The notes beneath the pieces are model-generated. The model was given only the letters and a program-made list of their open reading frames with translations. It made no database searches and was not told the DNA's origin. Positions 1,778-40,571 of a stretch of 64,000 bases of DNA are shown here, piece after piece (positions within the stretch are counted from its first letter, which is position 1; every line of letters begins with the position of its first letter). The stretch comes from Cladophialophora immunda (taxonomy: Eukaryota; Ascomycota; Eurotiomycetes; Chaetothyriales; Herpotrichiellaceae), in NCBI RefSeq assembly GCF_000835495.1, contig NW_015622542.1, forward strand, positions 6,098,485 through 6,162,484, read 5' to 3'. The translations under genes and the position numbers were made by a program.

Positions 1778-2359
1778 TGATGTGATCCAGGGTGTTTCTG
1801 AACAATCATCAGTACAGCTGAAGCAGCAGTTCGGATAGGGGATCGGTGTGTACCAAATGCTGCCATACACCGAGTAATGCAGGGTCATGAGGATGACACC
1901 CAAGGATACCTAAACAGATGACGCCACCAGTGCGGAGACGGAAAGATTCAGGTGAGGATAGCCTGATTGATGTGTAGAGGTCTGTGGTGCAGAATTGCAA
2001 CAACAGATGGTATAGACATGCTTGACAAAGGCAGATATTGGATTGCTCGGCGATTTTGAGAGCTGGTCTTGTGGACAACCTTGACTGCGGCACAGGCATG
2101 TGCACAGCGCAGGCAGAGACGTGATGATCAGTGACTTGTTCGGCGATCCATCCATGCAAGTCATAATGAAGGGGGACCCAGCACGTGACACCGAGAGAAC
2201 CGCGGATGTTTAGGCGAAGTTTCGCCGGTCCGAAATGGCGACAAGCAAAAAGATTTCCTGCAGCTTCTGTCGCTCGAAGACGACGAACAGCACACTCCGC
2301 CATCGCCAACATTGCGGCCATCAGCCAGTTTGATCTTGTTGCTTCGCTGACAGGAATCA
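1778..2359. promoter_or_regulatory. Divergent intergenic region between the peroxin gene and PAM16
   Basis: This stretch of 582 bases lies between two start codons pointing away from each other and so must hold both promoters and 5' leaders. I see no additional conserved reading frame or RNA gene in it. Confidence 0.5.
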
Positions 2360-2852
2360 ATGGTATGTATCTCCTGGTTTCCTGGTCTTGCCAGCCCGTC
2401 ATTCCCTGCAGGACATGGACTGACCGTCGCAGGCGCATCGAATTATCGCCCAGATCGTCCTAACCGGCGGGCGTGTCTTTGGCAGGGCCTTTGCAGAGGC
2501 ATACAAGCAAGCACAAGCATCGACACAATATGCAAGGGCTGCTGCGAAAAGTGACCCGGGTGCCGTCAATACCGCCGCCGCTTCCGGAATGACCCTTGAC
2601 GAAGCCTGCAAGATTCTCAACGTGAAGCCTCCCCAAGGTGGCGCCACCAACATGGAACAGGTCATGGAGAGGTTCAAGAAGTTGTACGATCTCAACGAGC
2701 CGAAGAAAGGTGGTGGTGGATCCTTCTACCTCCAGAGCAAGATTCTTCGTGCAAGAGAACGGATAGAGATGGAGGCCCGCGCCGCCGAGCACAAGGCCAA
2801 GTTGGAAAAAGAAATCAAAGAAGGTTGGAGACCCAAGATATACAAAGATTGA
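2360..2852 (+). CDS. PAM16: Pam16/Tim16, J-like subunit of the mitochondrial presequence translocase motor
   Basis: Two exons: 2360-2362 (only the ATG) and 2433-2852, joined across a 70-base intron that starts GTATGT and ends GCAG. The product is 140 residues, the usual size for Pam16. It reads MAHRIIAQIVLTGGR at the N terminus (membrane-associating segment). The degenerate J domain follows from about residue 55 (MTLDEACKILNVKP ... MERFKKLYDLN ... GSFYLQSKILRARE). As in the family, the HPD motif of true J proteins is absent: Pam16 binds Pam18 and restrains its stimulation of mtHsp70 during matrix protein import. The start codon is chosen because it alone puts the conserved MAHRII N terminus in frame. 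The splitting of the gene directly after the ATG is notable. Confidence 0.95.
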
Positions 2853-4255
2853 TCTCCCTTGTGGCTGACCGTCTCCAAAGGACGGTAACGAGACTGGATG
2901 GCCAACTCGGCCCACACCACTTCGTTTCCTCGAATCCTCTTTTCGACAATTGTTTCTCGAGCATAGCGGACGGCGTTGGATGGGGATCTACTGTAAAAAT
3001 CGATTGTACTATACCATGGGCGAGGGTCTACGCTAGAATCTTTCAGCAAAGAGAATGGGATTTTCACGTCTTGGATGGATGCTCCTTCTACTTTCGAGGG
3101 AAGGGTGGCTATATGCAGGAAGAGATAGCAGACAGGCCGACGCGGTGTCTCTGGTATCAGATCTGCCATATTCGCAGCCTTGGGGGTTGGGGGACCGACG
3201 CCGCTCCATCCCAATGAGCGACTCTCCACTCAAGGAAGGAAATTGGGACCATGTTGAATCGGCCATATATTGGCCCGGGGTGAAGTCGATGCAGACATGT
3301 AGAGAACGAGAGCGAACGAAAGAGATCCAGGAGAGGGTTGGGGAAACTCGATACTCCCTCCTGGCGCTCAAGCAGGTTCCAGAAATGATAACACATTCAA
3401 AGTCACATTTGGCTAGTGGCTATTACATACGGTGATGTGTTGGCAGCCAAAAAAGGAGCACGGATCAGTCAAGCCGACCAGTTTCGATGCTTGCGTAAGG
3501 AGGAAGGGCAGGGAAGACCAGGATCACCACGATCACCGGGTTAGAAGTGGGTATTGACGGAGGCAGAGGTGCGATAAGGTGTGAGATCTGTGCCGCAGGT
3601 TACAAAGACTGCGCCCAGGCCAATATGAAGGCGTCATGGATCTGGGTGGCGTCGTCCGCGATTCTGCTTCGCTGCGTTTGTCTCCATCCCCCATGTTCCA
3701 GGCTTGCATTATCTTGACCTGTGACGAGTCAACGTTGCGTGCTTAAGCGAAGATGCTACTATGCCGCTTGTCGATGCAGGTGTCCATCCCATTGTTGCCC
3801 GCTAGGATCCCATCAGATTGATTGATGCCCTGCCCTTGGCCGTTTTGGAGCGCATCTCGGTCCACACATTGCTTTCCAATCCACACCCTCCGCCTGCGAC
3901 AGCCTGCGACAGCCTGTGACTCGGAGGAGAACAATCTAGGCCACCGGCAACTCACCTCCTTCTTGTTCTCTAGCTCGATATCAGCCGCAGGAACCTATCC
4001 CTTGCATGCCTTGGACTGCCCCACCGCGCTGTCGCCATCTCTCCCAAAACTTCCGAATCGAACCAAACGCAAAAAAAGAGTCTTTGGTGGCTCGTGTCAT
4101 CCATCAGAATTCCCGATTTCGACCGCCGTTGCCCAGAAAGGTATTACATTGGCACCCTGCCCCTAGATACCTCCAACCCGCCTCGACTATTCAACCTACA
4201 TACCCTTCTTTCACCAGACTCATACACTGTGCTTGTCCGTGGGACTGACGAAGAC
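2853..4255. other. Intergenic region between PAM16 and ARA2 (about 1.4 kb)
   Basis: It holds the PAM16 3' end and the ARA2 promoter. Two overlapping open frames of 100-150 codons occur on opposite strands around 2825-3229. Neither resembles a family I recognise and both run into PAM16 coding sequence. The part from 3400 to 4250 shows no gene. Confidence 0.4.
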
Positions 4256-18732: not shown

Positions 18733-21700
18733 TCAACATGTAGATCCGACCCAGCCAATACAACTCCTTTCCATCCATCTTCCGACCAGCAGCCAACGCT
18801 GGATTTCCGGGAAGTCTCGTGCTTGGTCGAAGACGTTGACCACTTCACCCAGAGCGGGACAGAAGCACGAGAACCCGGCGCCAGCGCTGATGAGCTCCTT
18901 CACGATGTGCAGTCTGCCATAAGATGCGGCGGCAATAAGCGGCGTGCCCATTTGCCCGCCGATCAAGTCCAGATCCGCCCCAGAGACGAGAAGCAGCCGG
19001 AGGATCTTTAGTTGTCCCATTGCACTCGCGGCGTAGAGGGGTGTGTCGCGATGTTCTGGCTTGACATTCAGCATGTCAAGGCTCTGTTCACGTCCCAGTC
19101 TTCTCAGCAGTCGCCGGAGCAGTCCATGGTTGAAGTCGTACCAGTGATAGTTCAAGGCGCTACCGAAACATCTTGTACGTCCGCTCAAGTCCAAGCCAGA
19201 GTTTAGAATGTAGGCCTTCATGACAGCTGGGCCGCGGTTCCAGCAAGAGTGTAATGCTGTCCATCCGAGACCATCCGGTTCTATCATTTCATGTGGATGA
19301 CCAACCGCCTCGTAGAGCTCTAGTACCCTAGATGACGCCGCGAGCTCAGAGATAAGAGTCCGACGATCCAAGCAGCATGGCAGGCGGAACAAATTAGACT
19401 GAATTAGCTTCTCCCCAGATACTTGGGAATGGGCAAGACGGATTGAACATGCGCAGCTTTCGCTGTCCGATGGAAAGTGATGGATTGACGCGCCATAATC
19501 AAGTAGAGCGCAGACAGCTTTTGAATCAGGTCGCCTGGCAGCTATAGAGAGTGCTGTATCGAGGTAAATGGACGATTCCTGGTTCACCCGGGCGCCGTGT
19601 TCCAGGAGCAGACGAATTGCTTCGACATTGGCATTGTAGGCAGCACACTGCAATGCTGTGTGAGCTCCTACACCGAGAAGCATTGACACGTTCACACCCT
19701 TCGTTAGTTCCAGATCATTCGGAAGCTCAGGAGAGATTTCCACACCCAGGAGATCCTCAATCGAGATCAGGTGGTGGCCTTGAGGTCCACGTCTCTTCCA
19801 CATGTCGAGACTGCCTTGTGCATGGGCAACTCTCGAATCCGGACAGTCGCGGTTAACGGAAAGAGTGAGAGATTTGTGCAACCTGCTCCAACAGTCGGTC
19901 CTCTTCTCTAGCATGATTTTCAGACATTCGTTCCGTTGCGCCAGAACAGCCAGGTGGAGCGGGTGAACATTCGTTCGCAGGAAGAGCAGCTCCGGACACA
20001 TGTCCAAAATCCGGTTCAGAGCTCGTGGGAGATTGCTCATGACGCATAGGTGTACAGCACTGTATTCTTGATGCATCATTTCCCCATAGTTCAGTCCTGC
20101 CTCTAGGAGGTATAGAAAAATCTCTTCCTTATTTGCCCATAAAGAATACAATATTGCATTCGTGCTCCCGCAGCATGCACATCTCTCGACTTGAAAATGG
20201 GTTTCGGAAACCAGCCGCTGACACAACTGTAGATTGTTGGAGTCGATGGCGTACTTGAGCTCTCTTCGGGGGGAATTTGAGACATTCGTTGGCGTCGTTT
20301 TCTTCTCTGCACGAACAGACCCACACTGGCCCTGCGAAACTGTAGATGGTCAGCAAACAGGTCGGTGAAGGACCAAAGCGAGGGAAAATATACTTGAAAA
20401 TATACTTTTGTCTGCAATGAAAGCCTCAATAACCGAGACGACTTCGGTCCAGTTCAAAGTCTTCGCAATTGATAAGGGCGTGCGGCCATAAGATCCAGGT
20501 TCGAGCGGATCGAATCCATGTTTTAACAGCGCGTTGACAATTTCGAGGTCTCCGAACTCAGCAGCCGTGTGCAGAGCAGTGTTGCCATTCCTAGCACGAT
20601 GGGGTGTGGCGCCACTTTGCAGTAGATATGTTACAATCGGCTGACAACGCCTTTGAACTGCGATTTCCAGTAACGTGCATCCATCGTCCGTTTGCTCCTC
20701 AAGCTTGAAGTACTGGGAGAGACCGAGGAGGAATTTGAGGCACTCGAGCTGACTGTAGACAGCTGCGGCGTGGTGAAGCTTGATAGCCCGCAGGCCGTGC
20801 GGCAATTGCAGAGGACAAGATTCTCTCCATCTGCCTCCCTCAACAGGAATCGACTGGAGAAAGCCAAGCCAGCCGTGTTGAATCGCTAGTTGAACCGATG
20901 AGACGCCATTCGAGTTCAACAGCCACGGGTCTGCGCCAGCTGTGAGCAGCAATGTTGCGCTTTCCACACGTTGAGCATAACAAGCGTAATGGAGAGCAAT
21001 ACTACCACCATGATCCCTCTCATTTGGGTCCAGCCCCTTTGACAGGAGCAGTTCAACCCTGTCAAGGTAGAATGCCGATGCTGCAAGATGGAGCAAGGAA
21101 GCTCCCAGCAACGTCTTAGAATCGAAAGACCCGGCGCTTTCCAGGATTATCTCGAATAGTGCATTGCCACAAGGAGACCAAAACACGCACTCCAGCGCAT
21201 TGACACAATGCTTGTCGTCGGCCATTTCCAAGTCTCTTGTCTCGAGATCCACATACCTTTTGAGAATGGCTTTCGCGATAGCGTCTGACCGGAGAAGGCC
21301 AAAGGTGAGTATTTGACGGCCTTTTACCCGAATTTTTCTAAGACATTCTTCAGGCAGATGATCGATCAGAACTATACTCAATCCTACCAATTCATCTTGC
21401 TCGGAATGGCCCCCTGCCAAGAAAGAGGACGCCAATGTGTCTAACGCCTGAAAAAGACATCTTGACATTTTTTCCAGCAAGTTTTTATCGTCGAAGAGAC
21501 CAGTCAGGCACCTTCTATCTTCGGCGAAGATTGTCCTCAGCATCCTGCAGGGCGTACGGAGATGGACAAAACCCGAGGCCATGAGAAATATCGTGATCCC
21601 CAGCAAGATCTTTTCGGCACTCTTTGTTATCATCGATTCAAGCGCCTCGTCCGTTGCGGAAGAACCGGAATTCCACATATCGGACATCAACAAGCGCTCC

Positions 21701-24700
21701 AGAGCGGACTCTGCCCCTGGCGATTTGGAGAGGAGAAGATCGGGACTGTGGTGGTAAAGAAGCTTGAAGCAAGAATCGTGTTGCCAAATAGTTGGCACAG
21801 AATATGACAACGGATTCTGGCCTTTGGAGTCTAGTGATGCAGGATCATGTCCTCGAGAAAGGAGGCGCTTCACCCATTCGCAATTACCGTTGACTGCTGC
21901 TATGTGCAGGGCTGTCCGACCAGACACATCTGTGCTCCACAGGTTTGCGCCAGCTTCCTCGAAGAACGAGAAATGCTCCGGAATTCCCTCTTGGGCAGCG
22001 ACCAACCACGGCGTGCGCCCTTTTTTATCAACCGTGTCTACTCCTGCTGGAGCATTCTCCAGAAGGAGATCCAAGATGTGCCGACTATCGGCATCCGTTC
22101 TGGATGCACAGAAATGCCAGGCATTCCAACCTCGGTGGTCACACAGTAGCGGGTTTGCCCCAGTCATAAGCAGGAACTCCACAGCTTCCGGCATTCCACT
22201 CTTGACGGCATGGTGTAGTGGTGTCCTGCCCTTTTCGTCTGCAATCTCCAGCTCAGCCCCATGCTCAAGGAGCATTCTTAAAATGGGCACATTGCAATGC
22301 CTGGCTGCTAACATGAGTGCTGATTCACCGGCATGGTTCTTCGAATTACAGTCTATTGAAAGACCCTCAAGCAAGGAGGTCATACTCTTCTCATTGTTGA
22401 ACCTGGCCGAGTCAAGCACCAATTCAAGTTGAGCTTCCACATCTGCAGATTGAGAAAGGATTTGGAGGGCTCCGGATGGCATGTCGACGCTAGGCGAGAG
22501 TGTGCAGAATTTTGCTTTCATCCTCGAAAATGCTTCTTTGGCTCCATGAGCAATCTCTTGCTCTGATATGCTGTCAACAATGCTCATAAGGCCAGTGTCG
22601 TCGCATTCGAACTCGCTGGAATCCAGATACTCTATCAACTTCTCAATGACAACAATCCCACATTTGGCTCCCGCACGAAGCAGGAGTCGAAAGGAATACC
22701 ACTCTTGAGTCAAAAGTGTCATTACCAGGGGAGTCATGGACAAGACTCCATCTTGGTGGACCCAATTTCCATCGACGTCTGCTCCGTGATCAATCAAGAC
22801 CTGCACGGTTTCCAGTAGGAAGATGTCTTCAATCTCTGCATCAAAACCGTAACTCAAGCTGGCTTCACGTGAGCCTTGTTGTGCCACACAGTAGCATTGG
22901 CACCCTACCAAAGCCATCTGAAGCGGCGTTCCGAACGAAGAACCTGCTTGGGTCTGACCTGGCACGCAAGTCAGGCTTCGGCAAACGTCAGGAAGTCTCA
23001 TCATTGCGGCCCAGTGCAGTGGAGTGAAAGATTTCCAACGGATTCGTGATCCAAAAAAACCGCTCGGGTTTATGCTACGGAAGCCAAATAACTCGAAGAG
23101 ATATTCTTGTGCCCATGAAGTAACAAGACGTGTGCTCTGAGGACCAAACAGTCTCATCAAGGGCTGTCGGACACTCGGGCTCTCCGTACAATCTCTGGCG
23201 AGATTCACCCATTTCACTACGGCCTGCGGTCGGAAGGGGTGTTCATGATGGCGGGAAGCCAACTCTTCCTCCCTCAAGCAAATGTCAAAGTCACCGCAGC
23301 AGAGGAAGGTCAAGCAGGTTGCTGCTAGGTATTGGCGGTCACTTTCGAAGTTCAATTTGTAGCTGGACAGGTCCGGTCTTGCAGTGGTATCGACCGATGT
23401 AAGAAATTCCTTCACGGTGAAGTGAGCAAGTTCAACCTTGTATTCATCTGAGCTCAGTCGCACCAAGCTCTCGCAATGAAGAAGAATATCTTGCACCTCG
23501 TATTTGCGCAGGTTTTTAAGCTGGCGCGTGTCTTCAGTTACCGCAAGGGCCTCAAGAAGAGCCGGCACCTCCATGTTGCAATAGGTAATCCACTTCAAGG
23601 CACACTGGACCAGGCGCTGTGTAAGAGGATGCTTCCGACTGATGCGATCTAGAACACGCTCGTATGAGGGGAATAGTCCACGAGGAAGAGTGTTGAGGGC
23701 TTCCCGGATGTCGAAGTCAGATGGCATTTCGCAGAAAGAGTCCAACTGCACCGCCACCCATCTGAACATGCCATCAGCACCGTTGATGAGCTTGTCCATA
23801 ATTTCGCCTTTAAGGCTTGGATCCTTGATCCTCAGACGTCTCACATTACTTGGCTTCATGCGGTTTTCCATCTCGGCTGCGACGTAGAGACGTAAATCAC
23901 TGCTTCTTGCAGCTATAGATATCCTCTTGTAGTCTGACATGAAGTCTTCGACATCGACAATCTTCCGGCTTGAAAGAAAAGTTTTTATACGTGCCGAGCC
24001 CTCGCTTAGCAATGTGAGGCACCTTGTTGTCCTGCGGACGTCTTCACATTCGTCCAAGCCATCGACAATGATCATAGTGGTTTCAAAGTTCTCAGCCATA
24101 GCGATGACAAGGTTGTAGAGCTCTTCTTCATTGGTGATAAAAGTTTGCAGGTCTTTATCGTGAGTATGCGCGTGAACGAATGCCTTTAGTTTGTCGAAGC
24201 TTCGAGAGTCCTGTCGCGCTATTTGCTCGGCCAAAGAACCCAGGATTTTGACTGGGTCTTGCGTTTCAGGATCTTTGTAGTCACAATAGAAATAGGCGAC
24301 TGCATTGTCCGAATTTGCATATGCAAGTGCTTTTTCAATCGCCGTGGCGGCCAGTACGCTTTTACCAGCGCCCGGAATGCCAAAGACCCATAGCTTGGAG
24401 TTCTGAGTTTCGAGCCACCATCTGAACTCGTCGCTTTCAATGAACCAGATGCTTGTTCCGGGATGGTGAAGTTGTGCATTAGTCTTTTGATACGCAACAG
24501 GTCTTGTTGGGCCAACAACAGATAAAAGTTCCCGTGTGGTCTTGTTGAGTTCGATCTGGGCGGATGCTTCCAGCAATTTACTGACTTTTTCGAGTGTGCT
24601 AGCGGATGACTCTGCATTACTGAGCATCGCCACCATCATCGAGAGGCCATTAGCGCTGAGCGAGGTCGTGAAGCTGATATTGTGATCATGGACTTTGCGT

Positions 24701-25068
24701 TTGAGGTCGAGAGCTTTTGATTTGTCAATCGGCCACATCCATCGAGCTTTGACAGTTCTGATAGATAAATCAGCCTCCGCCTCGGCCTCAGGTTGATATT
24801 TGGAAAGTAACTGGCGCAACTCATCCAAGGTAGTAACACAATCCGAGATATGCTTGGGATCGACGAGAGGTGCATGACCGTTCAGATCCTTGAGGTCCTC
24901 GGCCGCCGTCCTCACGCTTTGCAGTGTCCAATACAGACGCTTCACCTCGGCGGCGAGGTCCAGAATTTCTTTCTCGGCCCTTTTGACCCCCTTAATGTAT
25001 TTAAAGAGCCGCGTGAAGACAACATCAGCCGTGGAAATGACTCCAACAATACTAAAGGGGTCAGCCAT
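18733..25068 (-). CDS. NACHT-ankyrin STAND protein (fungal NLR-like), 2093 residues
   Basis: Two exons, 25068-20394 and 20339-18733, joined over a 54-base intron (donor GTATAT, acceptor ACAG) that restores one frame, so this is one gene rather than two. The N terminus (MADPFSIVGVISTADVVF...) looks like the helical N-terminal domain of fungal STAND proteins. The NACHT ATPase follows: Walker A GIPGAGKS at 230-237, Walker B TTMIIVDGLDECED near 331-344. After a helical linker the protein is a long run of ankyrin repeats, from about residue 700 to the C terminus, e.g. NHAGESALMLAARHCNVPILRMLLEHGAELE, DEKGRTPLHHAVKSG and GNTALHTAAEFGDLEIVNALLKHG. By family it would be an intracellular receptor in non-self recognition or programmed cell death. 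The acceptor choice is fixed by phase: the nearer CAG would shift the frame. Confidence 0.9.
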
Positions 25069-28654: not shown

Positions 28655-28661
28655 AAAAAAA
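28655..28661 (-). terminator. Pol III terminator of tRNA-Pro
   Basis: Seven T on the minus strand begin one base after the discriminator base of the tRNA, the expected RNA polymerase III stop signal. Confidence 0.85.
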
Positions 28662-28697
28662 GGGCTCAATCGGGATTCGAACCCGAGGCCTGTCACA

Positions 28698-28729
28698 TTT
28701 CATGGCTTTTTCAACCAGAGGCCAACCCG
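28698..28729 (-). other. Canonical anticodon-loop intron of tRNA-Pro (32 bases)
   Basis: Located one base 3' of the anticodon, between G37 and T38, as in eukaryotic nuclear tRNA introns. The flanking stem GTCGC/GTGAC closes with one G-T pair. Confidence 0.8.
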
Positions 28730-28757
28730 CCCGAAGCGACAATCATACCACTAGACC

Positions 28758-28814
28758 CTACATAACACATTGTTAGAACACCTGTAGATAATAAACCAAC
28801 GGGTAGCAACATAC
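28758..28814 (-). other. 57-base GT-AG intron-like insertion between tRNA bases 8 and 9
   Basis: On the minus strand it starts GTATGT, carries TTCTAAC with the presumed branch A 15 bases before the end, and ends ATGTAG. These match the splice signals and size of mRNA introns in neighbouring genes of this window. Its position within the tRNA is outside the site used by tRNA splicing endonuclease. Confidence 0.75.
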
Positions 28815-28822
28815 ATTGAGCC

Positions 28823-29159: not shown

Positions 29160-32016
29160 CTACAACTTGGGCTTAGGAGCACCCAAGAGCTCGGCTCCAG
29201 CACCGGCAATACATAGCTTGCCGGTCTCCTTGACCTTGGTCTGGAAGATGATCTTGTTACCCTCCTTCCACATCTCCGTCACCAAAGTCTGGCCTGGAAT
29301 CACGGTGCCAGCAAAGCGGACTTTGATGTTCTTGAAAAGACCGTATGTCTGGACAATGTGTTTGCCGCTGAAACCCATAAAGCAGAGACCGTGTAGGATA
29401 GGGTCCTTGAAGCCACCAACTTTGCTGAATTCAGGGTCAATGTGCAAAGGGTTCCGGTCGCCGTTCAGCCTGTACAGGGCAGCCTGGTCTTCTGAGGTCT
29501 TCTCCTCCACCACGGCGTCAGGAGCTCGCTTGGGAGGCTGGTAGACTATTGTTGCGTTGCCGCGGTTGGCTCCCTTCTTGGGTCCTCCGAAACCACCGGA
29601 CCCTCGGACGAAGACGGTGGACTCATTGTAGAAGACATCCTCCCCAGTCTTTGCGTCCTTGGTGATGGTACCAGTCACGACAATACCAGCATTGCCCTTG
29701 TCAACCACTTCTACTAGTCGAGGGTACGATATCAGTTTGGCGGCAGTCGGGATAGGGAACTTTCGAATCTCAAGATATTGTTCGCCATGGAGTAACATCA
29801 TAGGTGAGAAGTTCGGAAGAACCTCGTCCATCGAGAAAGGTGCAACGGCTCCGAAGAAAGGAATAACTCCAAACGTCGGCAGAACCTGGAAGTTGTCGTC
29901 GTTTTCGTAAACCAAGGGCAGTTGTGTTCTCCTTGCATTGAGGGACAGGTTGTAAAGGATGACATCCTTGTCGTCATAGACGAATTCAGTGCCGCTGGCT
30001 TGGGCTTTTTTAGCCTTTTCGATTGCCGCCAAGTAGTCTGTACCGGACTCTGATTTGTTGCTCTTGTTCTCCATGTTGGCCATAATAGATTTGAGACCAT
30101 CCTGGCCGCTCTCAGGGTAATCGGCTCGGCCATCATCGAAGTTGGTGATCCGGTCCCATTGCTCGACAACTTGCTCGGGTGTCAGCTTAACGTCGACAGG
30201 GAACCCGTGGCCCCCAGTTCTTTGCCATCGAGTGCGTGCTTGCCAGCCACTACCGACTTCAAAGAGAAGGCCTGTTGGCGGTTCCGGCACCTTGTCTGAG
30301 CATAACGCGAGCACAAGAGGAGCGACATATTCGGGCTTGAAAAGTTGCACTAATTCCTCGGGCAAGATACTGCGGGTCATTTGAGTCCCCGCGTTAGGTG
30401 CAATGGTGTTGACAAAGATGTTGTTCTTCCGGCCTTCTAGTGCTAGAGATCGAGAGAAGCCGAGTATACCGAGTTTCTGTCCAGATCAGCAGGCGCCCAA
30501 TTTGCAATCTGAGAAACTTACCGCAGCAGCGTAGTTAGCTTGACCAAAGTTCCCATAGATACCACTCGTGCTCGTGGTGTTCACAATCCGGCCATATTTC
30601 TGCTTGAGCATATATGGATATGCTGCCTTGGTCACTTTGTAGGTGCCACGGAGATGGATATTGATGATATCGTCCCATTGCTTGTCGTCCATATTGGCAA
30701 AAGCCTTGTCCCTGAGGATGCCTGCGTTGTTGATCAAGATATCGATTCTACCGAACGTATCGATGGCTGTTTTGACCACGGCGTCACCGTCTTCAACCGA
30801 GGCCTTGTTGCCGACAGCCTTGCCGCCGAGTTTTTGAATCTCTTGTACGACAGTGTCTGGATTCATCAGGTCATTTACGACAACAGAAGCGCCACGCTTG
30901 GCGAAAGCGAGACAGTAACCCCGGCCGAGACTGCAGGTGTTGTTAGTCAAGGTCAGTTGTGGAGAGCATCGGCAAAAACGTACCCAGCACCGCCGCCAGT
31001 TACCAGGACGACCTTCCCATCAAAGCGGATGTCCTCGCCTTGTTCATTGGGTGGCAGTTTCATTGATTCCTCAGCCTTGGTCACGAAATCGGCAACACCG
31101 TTGGGGTGTTCCGGCTCGGAGAAATCGCTGACCTGATCCCACTTCTTCAGGATGGCGCCGGGGGTGTAGGTGTCGTCAGCTTTGAGCAACAGGCCCTTGG
31201 CACGCTCCCATCTCAACTTGGCAATATGGCCTCCGCCAACTTCGAAGATCGAGCCGCTGGTATGTGTGTTGGACGGGTGGACCAAGACAGCCACGAGAGG
31301 CACCACCCAATCGGGCTTGAGGTTGTCAAGCACATCGGGAGGCATGACAGTCGCCGTCATTCGGCTGGCGGCAATGGGAGCAATGACATTGCAGATGATG
31401 TTATATTTGGCTCCTTCTTTGGCCAAGGTCTCAGTAAAACCAACTTGAGCCAGTTTCGCAGCGGAGTAGTTGCACTGGCCGAAGCTGCCGAACAGACCGG
31501 CGGCAGAAGCAGTGTTGATGACTCGGCCGTACTTCTGTTTCCTAAAATATGGCCATGCAGCTCTTGCACATTTGTATGCACCCTTGACGTGGACGGTGTT
31601 GATCAGATCCCAGTCGGAGTCCTTCATGTTCTTGAAGCTGACATCGCGGAGGATACCGGCATTGTTCAGGAGGACGTCAACGCGGCCAAAGTTGTCGATG
31701 GCGGTTTTGATAATCTTGTCGCCATTCTCGACACTGTCGTAGTTGGCGACTGCTTTGCCGCCAGCAGCTTTGATCTCATCGACCACGACGTCTGCGGCCT
31801 GGGACAAGGTCAGTGGATGCGGAGATGGTGCAGAGCATGTGACAATTTCAGACAGACCTTTGTGCCAGCACCCTCGCCCTTGAAGGAACCGCCCAAGTCG
31901 TTGACGACGACATTGGCACCTCTCGAGGCGAAGAAGAGGGCATATGCTTTCCCGAGACCACCACCAGCACCAGTGACCACCACGGTCTGGTTGTCGAAAC
32001 GTAATTCTTGCACCAT
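29160..32016 (-). CDS. FOX2: Peroxisomal multifunctional beta-oxidation enzyme (Fox2/MFE-2)
   Basis: Four exons: 32016-31858, 31798-30984, 30930-30522 and 30476-29160, with introns of 59, 53 and 45 bases; 899 residues. Two short-chain dehydrogenase domains come in tandem, each with a Gly-rich NAD site ([14 protein letters not shown] and VTGGGAGLGRGYCL) and an N-x-A-G motif. Each also has a Ser-Tyr-Lys active site ([21 protein letters not shown] and [21 protein letters not shown]). The C-terminal third is a MaoC-type 2-enoyl-CoA hydratase 2 ([14 protein letters not shown] ... [11 protein letters not shown]). The protein ends PKL, a variant PTS1 that sends it to peroxisomes. It converts trans-2-enoyl-CoA to 3-ketoacyl-CoA via the D-3-hydroxy intermediate in fatty acid beta-oxidation. 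It diverges from TDA10. The Pex24-family peroxin at the left edge is a functional relative, though not adjacent. Confidence 0.97.
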
Positions 32017-40450: not shown

Positions 40451-40571
40451 CGAGGAACATGGGACTCGAACCCACAACCTTGGCTTGGCACCTGCCCTTC
40501 CAACCAACGACATGACGGTGAATGGGACACAAGTGTAGGAGAGCCACGCGCTACCATTGCGCCAATCCCCC
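40451..40571 (-). tRNA. tRNA-Arg(CCT) with a 49-base intron
   Basis: The cloverleaf is complete. The acceptor GGGGGAT/GTTCCTC has three G-T pairs; the D stem is GCGC/GCGC around AATGGTA; the anticodon stem TGGCT/AGCCA surrounds CTCCTA; the T arm is GTGGG-TTCGAGT-CCCAT. The anticodon CCT is at 40539-40537. The intron 40535-40487 sits at the canonical site after base 37. Mature length is 72 bases before CCA. The intron does not begin GT or end AG. A and B boxes are intact. Confidence 0.88.

Follow-up and report, generated by a model that had tools for sequence, protein, structure and literature searches.

Can a nuclear tRNA gene that is interrupted by an intron of the mRNA type be a working gene? 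The question is raised by a tRNA-Pro(CGG) gene in the window (the whole stretch of DNA analyzed here, 64,000 nucleotides long), in which a first, sequence-only reading had noticed a 57-nt insert between bases 8 and 9 and had interpreted it as a spliceosomal intron, making the gene a case either of a new kind of tRNA intron or of a fresh pseudogenization. The features of the gene, as obtained by reading of the sequence and scripted mapping, are listed here together with two other features of the window that are referred to below; exon coordinates follow from the intron borders by arithmetic.

28662 to 28822, minus strand: tRNA-Pro(CGG) gene, three exons
28815 to 28822, minus strand: exon 1, the acceptor 5' strand and T8 (GGCTCAAT)
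28758 to 28814, minus strand: spliceosomal-type intron, 57 nt, between bases 8 and 9 (GTATGT..TTCTAAC..ATGTAG)
28772 to 28778, minus strand: branch-site-like TTCTAAC, with the branch A 15 nt from the 3' splice site
28730 to 28757, minus strand: exon 2, the D arm through base 37, anticodon CGG
28698 to 28729, minus strand: 37/38 intron, 32 nt, at the canonical site and by its position of the tRNA endonuclease type
28662 to 28697, minus strand: exon 3, bases 38 to 73, including the T arm
28673 to 28683, minus strand: B box (GGTTCGAATCC), unbroken
28655 to 28661, minus strand: run of seven T adjoining the gene end, resembling an RNA polymerase III (Pol III) terminator
40451 to 40571, minus strand: tRNA-Arg(CCT) gene found by Rfam, with a 49-nt 37/38 intron and without a spliceosomal-type intron
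30931 to 30983, minus strand: mRNA intron of 53 nt in an MFE-2-type beta-oxidation gene, placed by alignment across the junction

Direct reading and script mapping bear out the position and sequence that had been claimed for the mRNA-type insert. Once this insert and the 32-nt anticodon intron are removed, the exons (8, 28, and 36 nt) yield a well-paired mature tRNA of the normal 72 nt, as had been proposed, in which every tested stem pair and invariant base is kept. With the 37/38 intron removed beforehand, the GT-AG product is the sole best tRNA among 2,673 distinct excisions of blocks of 35 to 85 nt, and the combination of GT..AG ends with CTAAC near the 3' end arises at a rate of 7e-5 in random sequence with the same proportions of bases as the introns. 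Rfam, searched across the window at the gathering score, has no match at the unspliced gene. A model built from mature tRNAs, this same tRNA-Pro(CGG) among them, gives the unspliced stretch 28662-28758 a score of 37.2 bits. ARAGORN calls zero tRNAs in the window and misses even the tRNA-Arg(CCT) gene that Rfam finds, so that its silence on tRNA-Pro(CGG) is uninformative either way.

The architecture of this gene recurs across the genome. An incomplete survey of 42.2 Mb in 39 contigs produced a catalogue of 43 tRNA genes. In 24 of them there is no insert outside the 37/38 site; the other 19, the interrupted genes, hold 28 inserts of this kind, between one and three in each, with all arms of the tRNA hit. 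The positions below follow standard numbering and were assigned by hand from the mature sequences; none of the 28 inserts lies at 37/38.

Pro(CGG): 8/9
Pro(AGG): 3/4 and 32/33
Pro(TGG): 53/54
Glu(TTC): 43/44
Glu(CTC): 15/16
Arg(TCT): 46/47
Ile(TAT): 3/4
Ile(AAT), second gene: 15/16
Asp(GTC): 24/25
Asn(GTT): 23/24 and 42/43
Leu(CAG): 9/10 and 29/30
Ala(AGC): 7/8
Leu(TAG): 15/16
Val(AAC): 16/17 and 26/27
Ser(GCT): 24/25 and the variable arm
Leu(TAA): 52/53
Lys(CTT): 7/8, 13/14, and 68/69
Phe(GAA): 15/16 and 29/30
His(GTG): 52/53 and 61/62, leaving a 9-nt exon

All 28 inserts begin with GT and end with AG, and all contain a YTRAY motif whose A lies 10 to 15 nt from the 3' end; exact CTAAC occurs within the last 20 nt in 24 of them, G stands at donor position +5 in 27, and G is the last exon base in 15. 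Lengths run from 49 to 69 nt (median 53.5). Canonical 37/38 introns also interrupt tRNA genes, being present in 37 of the 43 catalogued genes (up to 57 nt long) and co-occurring in all 19 interrupted ones, but they differ in position and enzyme and lack the combination of GT, branch, and AG signals (none of 23): in the 23-gene set in which they were compared, none starts with GT, none has YTRAY at 10 to 15 nt, and four end with AG. The layout of the tRNA inserts is like that of the MFE-2-type mRNA intron of the window (donor GTACGT, then CTAAC, with 12 nt to CAG), which was verified by a gap-free alignment of 236 amino acids to P0024 over the junction at 72% identity. This comparison consists of one homology-verified intron of 53 nt; a window-wide scan for mRNA introns (20 candidates against 10 in the reversed control) was too noisy for statistics. 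The insert in tRNA-Pro(CGG) is very probably a spliceosomal intron of the GT-AG class, lodged in a functional nuclear gene, and one of at least 28 in at least 19 tRNA genes, which supports what the sequence-only reading had inferred for one locus. Among the protein-coding genes of the window are one for a protein with fungal-specific transcription factor and Zn2Cys6 domains and one (20350-25068, minus strand) for a 1572-aa, NLR-like protein with an NPHP3_N domain and ankyrin repeats. The genome is taken to be that of a fungus on the strength of the first of these proteins; a search for 5.8S rRNA gave no match.

Beyond the splice signals the introns have no sequence in common: the best pair of intron cores scores 12, a value equalled in 15 of 60 shuffles. 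A burst of near-identical, introner-like copies was rejected on this ground, and the same lack of common sequence leaves the idea of a fresh event without support. Group I and group II introns were also rejected; these have a catalytic core of hundreds of bases, for which all 28 inserts are too short.

Several properties of the survey bear on how its counts are to be read. The Rfam tRNA search scored 63 of 935 candidates and gave 26 matches, 24 of them above the cut-off; the two under it (L026, and L027, also listed as L027/L089) were removed before counting. The former (L026/L079, G000:C3:5795289-5795341) is a 53-nt Asp(GTC)-like fragment that ends in the T loop with GTAAGT next to it, and it was not counted; no clear branch motif or 3' exon was seen in the 250 bases inspected. 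Genes beyond the Rfam set, including four uninterrupted ones that Rfam missed (L065, L068, L069, and L073), were mostly found through an intact GTTCRANYC core with a nearby T run, and because the pattern required both, neither can be read as a sign of selection in these genes. Patterns of B box plus terminator matched 80, 62, and 39 places against 53, 57, and 19 in reversed controls, and B box plus donor matched 30 against 38; with control counts this high the matches are mostly chance, and the real tRNA genes among them were chosen by structure. An exact search of the genome for the Pro D arm found two places. The stretches fetched (n = 100) are a subset of the matches, the first 60 giving 21 tRNA genes and the last 40 none; three of these last 40 passed the filter, and none was judged a tRNA. 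Duplicates among the catalogued genes, which are few for 42 Mb, are confined to Asp(GTC), Ile(AAT), and Gly(GCC), with two genes each. For Gln, Trp, Tyr, Lys(TTT), and Val(CAC), no gene was recognized among the places examined in the genome, which suggests that these five are likewise hidden by introns; their absence may also be due to the limits of the search patterns. One tRNA-Gly gene (L015, G000:C5:1266434-1266520) has the anticodon TCC or CCC according to where its 37/38 border is set.

The model from mature tRNAs gives seven uninterrupted genes 39 to 74 bits and 18 of the 19 interrupted genes 12 to 51 bits, with no match for the remaining one, so that the groups overlap. Before the 37/38 borders were corrected, ARAGORN with default options called none of 16 raw interrupted genes and 15 of the 16 in mature form, the anticodon being in many cases wrong or undefined. 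Run with the intron option, it also called nine of the 16 raw genes, mostly with other anticodons. It further called 486 of 3,200 random excisions, and its calls were not used as support.

The intron borders were compared with structure by a cloverleaf score that is ignorant of splice sites, self-made, and calibrated on no other data. Every single block of 35 to 85 nt was excised in turn and the product scored, with the 37/38 intron and any other inserts removed beforehand. The GT-AG product came top in 24 of 28 cases when ties are allowed and uniquely top in 15 (2,347 to 3,592 products each), many scores being tied as a consequence of an intron that lies in a loop. In the exceptions, other products scored better: five for the second Asn intron, four for the second Ser intron, and one each for the Ala(AGC) intron, whose GT-AG product retains one acceptor mismatch, and the first Lys intron. 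In Ser(GCT), the donor GTATTC of the first intron ranked 48th, and GTCAGT, preferred by the scan, was adopted in its place, so border and structure are not independent for this intron. The 37/38 borders were moved to yield a 7-base loop in ten genes and then in three more; as these borders were set for pairing of the anticodon stem, good pairing is favored in the border, covariation, and decay tests alike.

An interrupted gene of this kind could be a dead copy, the introns having landed in tRNA genes that became pseudogenes while intact copies elsewhere do the work. Uninterrupted copies do exist for Asp and Ile(AAT): the two Asp(GTC) genes, L060 (with a 53-nt insert after base 24) and L069 (with none), encode identical 72-nt mature tRNAs and differ in their 37/38 introns, and the interrupted Ile(AAT) gene L081 has a diverged, plain paralogue, L007, that differs at several mature positions. 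Both comparisons count for the spliceosomal reading as well, the Asp pair showing the same tRNA with and without an insert. The incompleteness of the survey, which drew on 12 queries of the genome and in which Rfam scored 63 of 935 candidates and passed over four uninterrupted genes, also leaves room for further copies. Against this, no second gene of the same anticodon was found in this survey for 17 of the 19 interrupted genes, and every gene found for Pro (three), Glu (two), Asn, Lys, Phe, and His (one each) is interrupted. At up to three mismatches, the 28-base Pro core occurs at three places genome-wide, namely Pro(CGG) itself, the interrupted Pro(AGG), and Ala(CGC); the further intact Pro(CGG) copies that the sequence-only reading had associated with a dead gene were thus not found at this threshold. 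The interrupted genes are also without pseudogene-type decay of pairs or invariant bases: 376 of their 380 stem pairs and all 209 invariants are kept, where the remaining 24 genes keep 477 of 480 and 262 of 264, counts that take in three D-stem pairs only and a parse favoring pairing, alike in both groups. Across 32 mature class-I tRNAs of both groups, 94.6% of cells pair and covariation is 1.037 against 0.261 when shuffled. We therefore regard dead copies as very unlikely, and the pseudogenization that had been offered as an alternative finds no support at this locus. A different account keeps the genes alive and assigns the extra introns to the tRNA splicing endonuclease, cutting at non-canonical sites as in some archaea, nucleomorphs, and Cyanidioschyzon. 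Introns in those systems likewise occur at many positions and several per gene, with archaeal examples at 3/4, 25/26, 29/30, and 53/54 and nucleomorph examples in the D and T arms, but they are ascribed to BHB motifs and the endonuclease in a paper (PMC4090602) that nowhere uses the word spliceosome; the same source gives the Guillardia theta nucleomorph insertions as 3 to 24 nt, against 49 to 69 nt here. That all 28 inserts, and none of the 23 introns at 37/38, have a donor, a branch motif, and an acceptor in a fixed arrangement argues against removal by the tRNA endonuclease alone, an explanation that we consider extremely improbable.

A reading that shares the core claim, with the same introns and the same spliceosome, differs in the polymerase: the tRNAs would be cut later from longer Pol II transcripts. 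Splicing by the spliceosome normally goes together with Pol II transcription, the A-box region is split by introns in several genes, and a TATA-like motif at -60 to -20 is present in only 18 of the 43 genes (10 of the 19 interrupted genes and 8 of the 24 others), all of which would suit such transcripts. Pointing the other way are a run of at least four T within 45 nt downstream of all 43 genes, although most of the non-Rfam genes came from patterns demanding such a run, and the precedent of an intron-containing U6 as a Pol III gene (cited in the accessible part of PMC5832005). The 28 spliceosomal-type introns contain no run of five or more T, but with 1.5 expected (P = 0.21) this absence is no evidence, and in Leu(TAA) and Ser(TGA) the 37/38 introns contain T6 and T5, an observation that does not speak for Pol III. 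On balance we hold Pol II transcripts to be unlikely, and transcription of the interrupted genes by Pol III would be the natural reading of their sequence. By eye, a CTTCAACAATCAC-like motif recurs shortly before the start of several tRNA genes and is perhaps an initiator.

The presence of spliceosomal-type introns in tRNA genes throughout this genome is real, and the interrupted genes are, judging from their preserved structure, most likely functional. Probably, then, spliceosomal introns have made their way into the tRNA genes at large as a further class of tRNA intron, and the decoding of Pro, Glu, Asn, Phe, His, and other amino acids would depend obligatorily on spliceosomal processing of Pol III transcripts, with two splicing machines acting in series on one pre-tRNA. 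In the mechanism that we propose, Pol III would transcribe the whole interrupted gene, as its B box and T run suggest; the spliceosome would excise one or more GT-AG introns in the manner of mRNA splicing, and by joining the exons would enable the tRNA arms to pair; afterwards, in this presumed order, the transcript would pass to RNase P, to 3' processing, and to the tRNA splicing endonuclease. In recognizing its substrate, the endonuclease relies on the folded body of the tRNA, from which it cuts the 37/38 intron. If this is true, translation would be linked directly to the spliceosome through tRNA genes that need both machines, large-scale splicing of Pol III transcripts would appear to be possible, and the undercount by tRNA finders in such genomes would be explained. 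The insertions, some with an uninterrupted paralogue, also offer a test set for mechanisms of intron gain.

No earlier report of spliceosomal introns in tRNA genes was found in a search of open-access titles and abstract openings, with preprints and most subscription journals outside its range. The accessible part of one paper describes tRNA splicing, as late as 2026, as independent of the spliceosome (PMC13149111). Mass gain of spliceosomal introns is likewise described for fungal introner-like elements, which, according to the part of the source available, are multiplying, invasive introns (PMC4457414), whereas the tRNA introns described here share only their splice signals. A 2017 paper, in the portion accessible, states that among small structured RNAs frequent interruption is known for U3 and U6 and no others (PMC5832005). 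There, the introns of fungal U3 snoRNA are likewise of the normal spliceosomal kind and interrupt a structured non-coding RNA, but they lie almost exclusively in one 5' stem-loop, whereas here every tRNA arm and many isoacceptors are affected.

U6 snRNA is transcribed by Pol III, and its gene in fission yeast and other fungi likewise carries an mRNA-type intron in a small structured RNA, although in that case one snRNA gene is interrupted, as compared with a set of tRNA genes here. The U6 gene of the present genome (G000:C3:4237854-4237954, minus strand) matches its family end to end over 101 nt and is free of inserts. Just downstream of it (G000:C3:4237791-4237819, minus strand) lies a B-box-like AGTTCGATTCC accompanied by a run of T, which may be an extragenic B box of the U6 gene.
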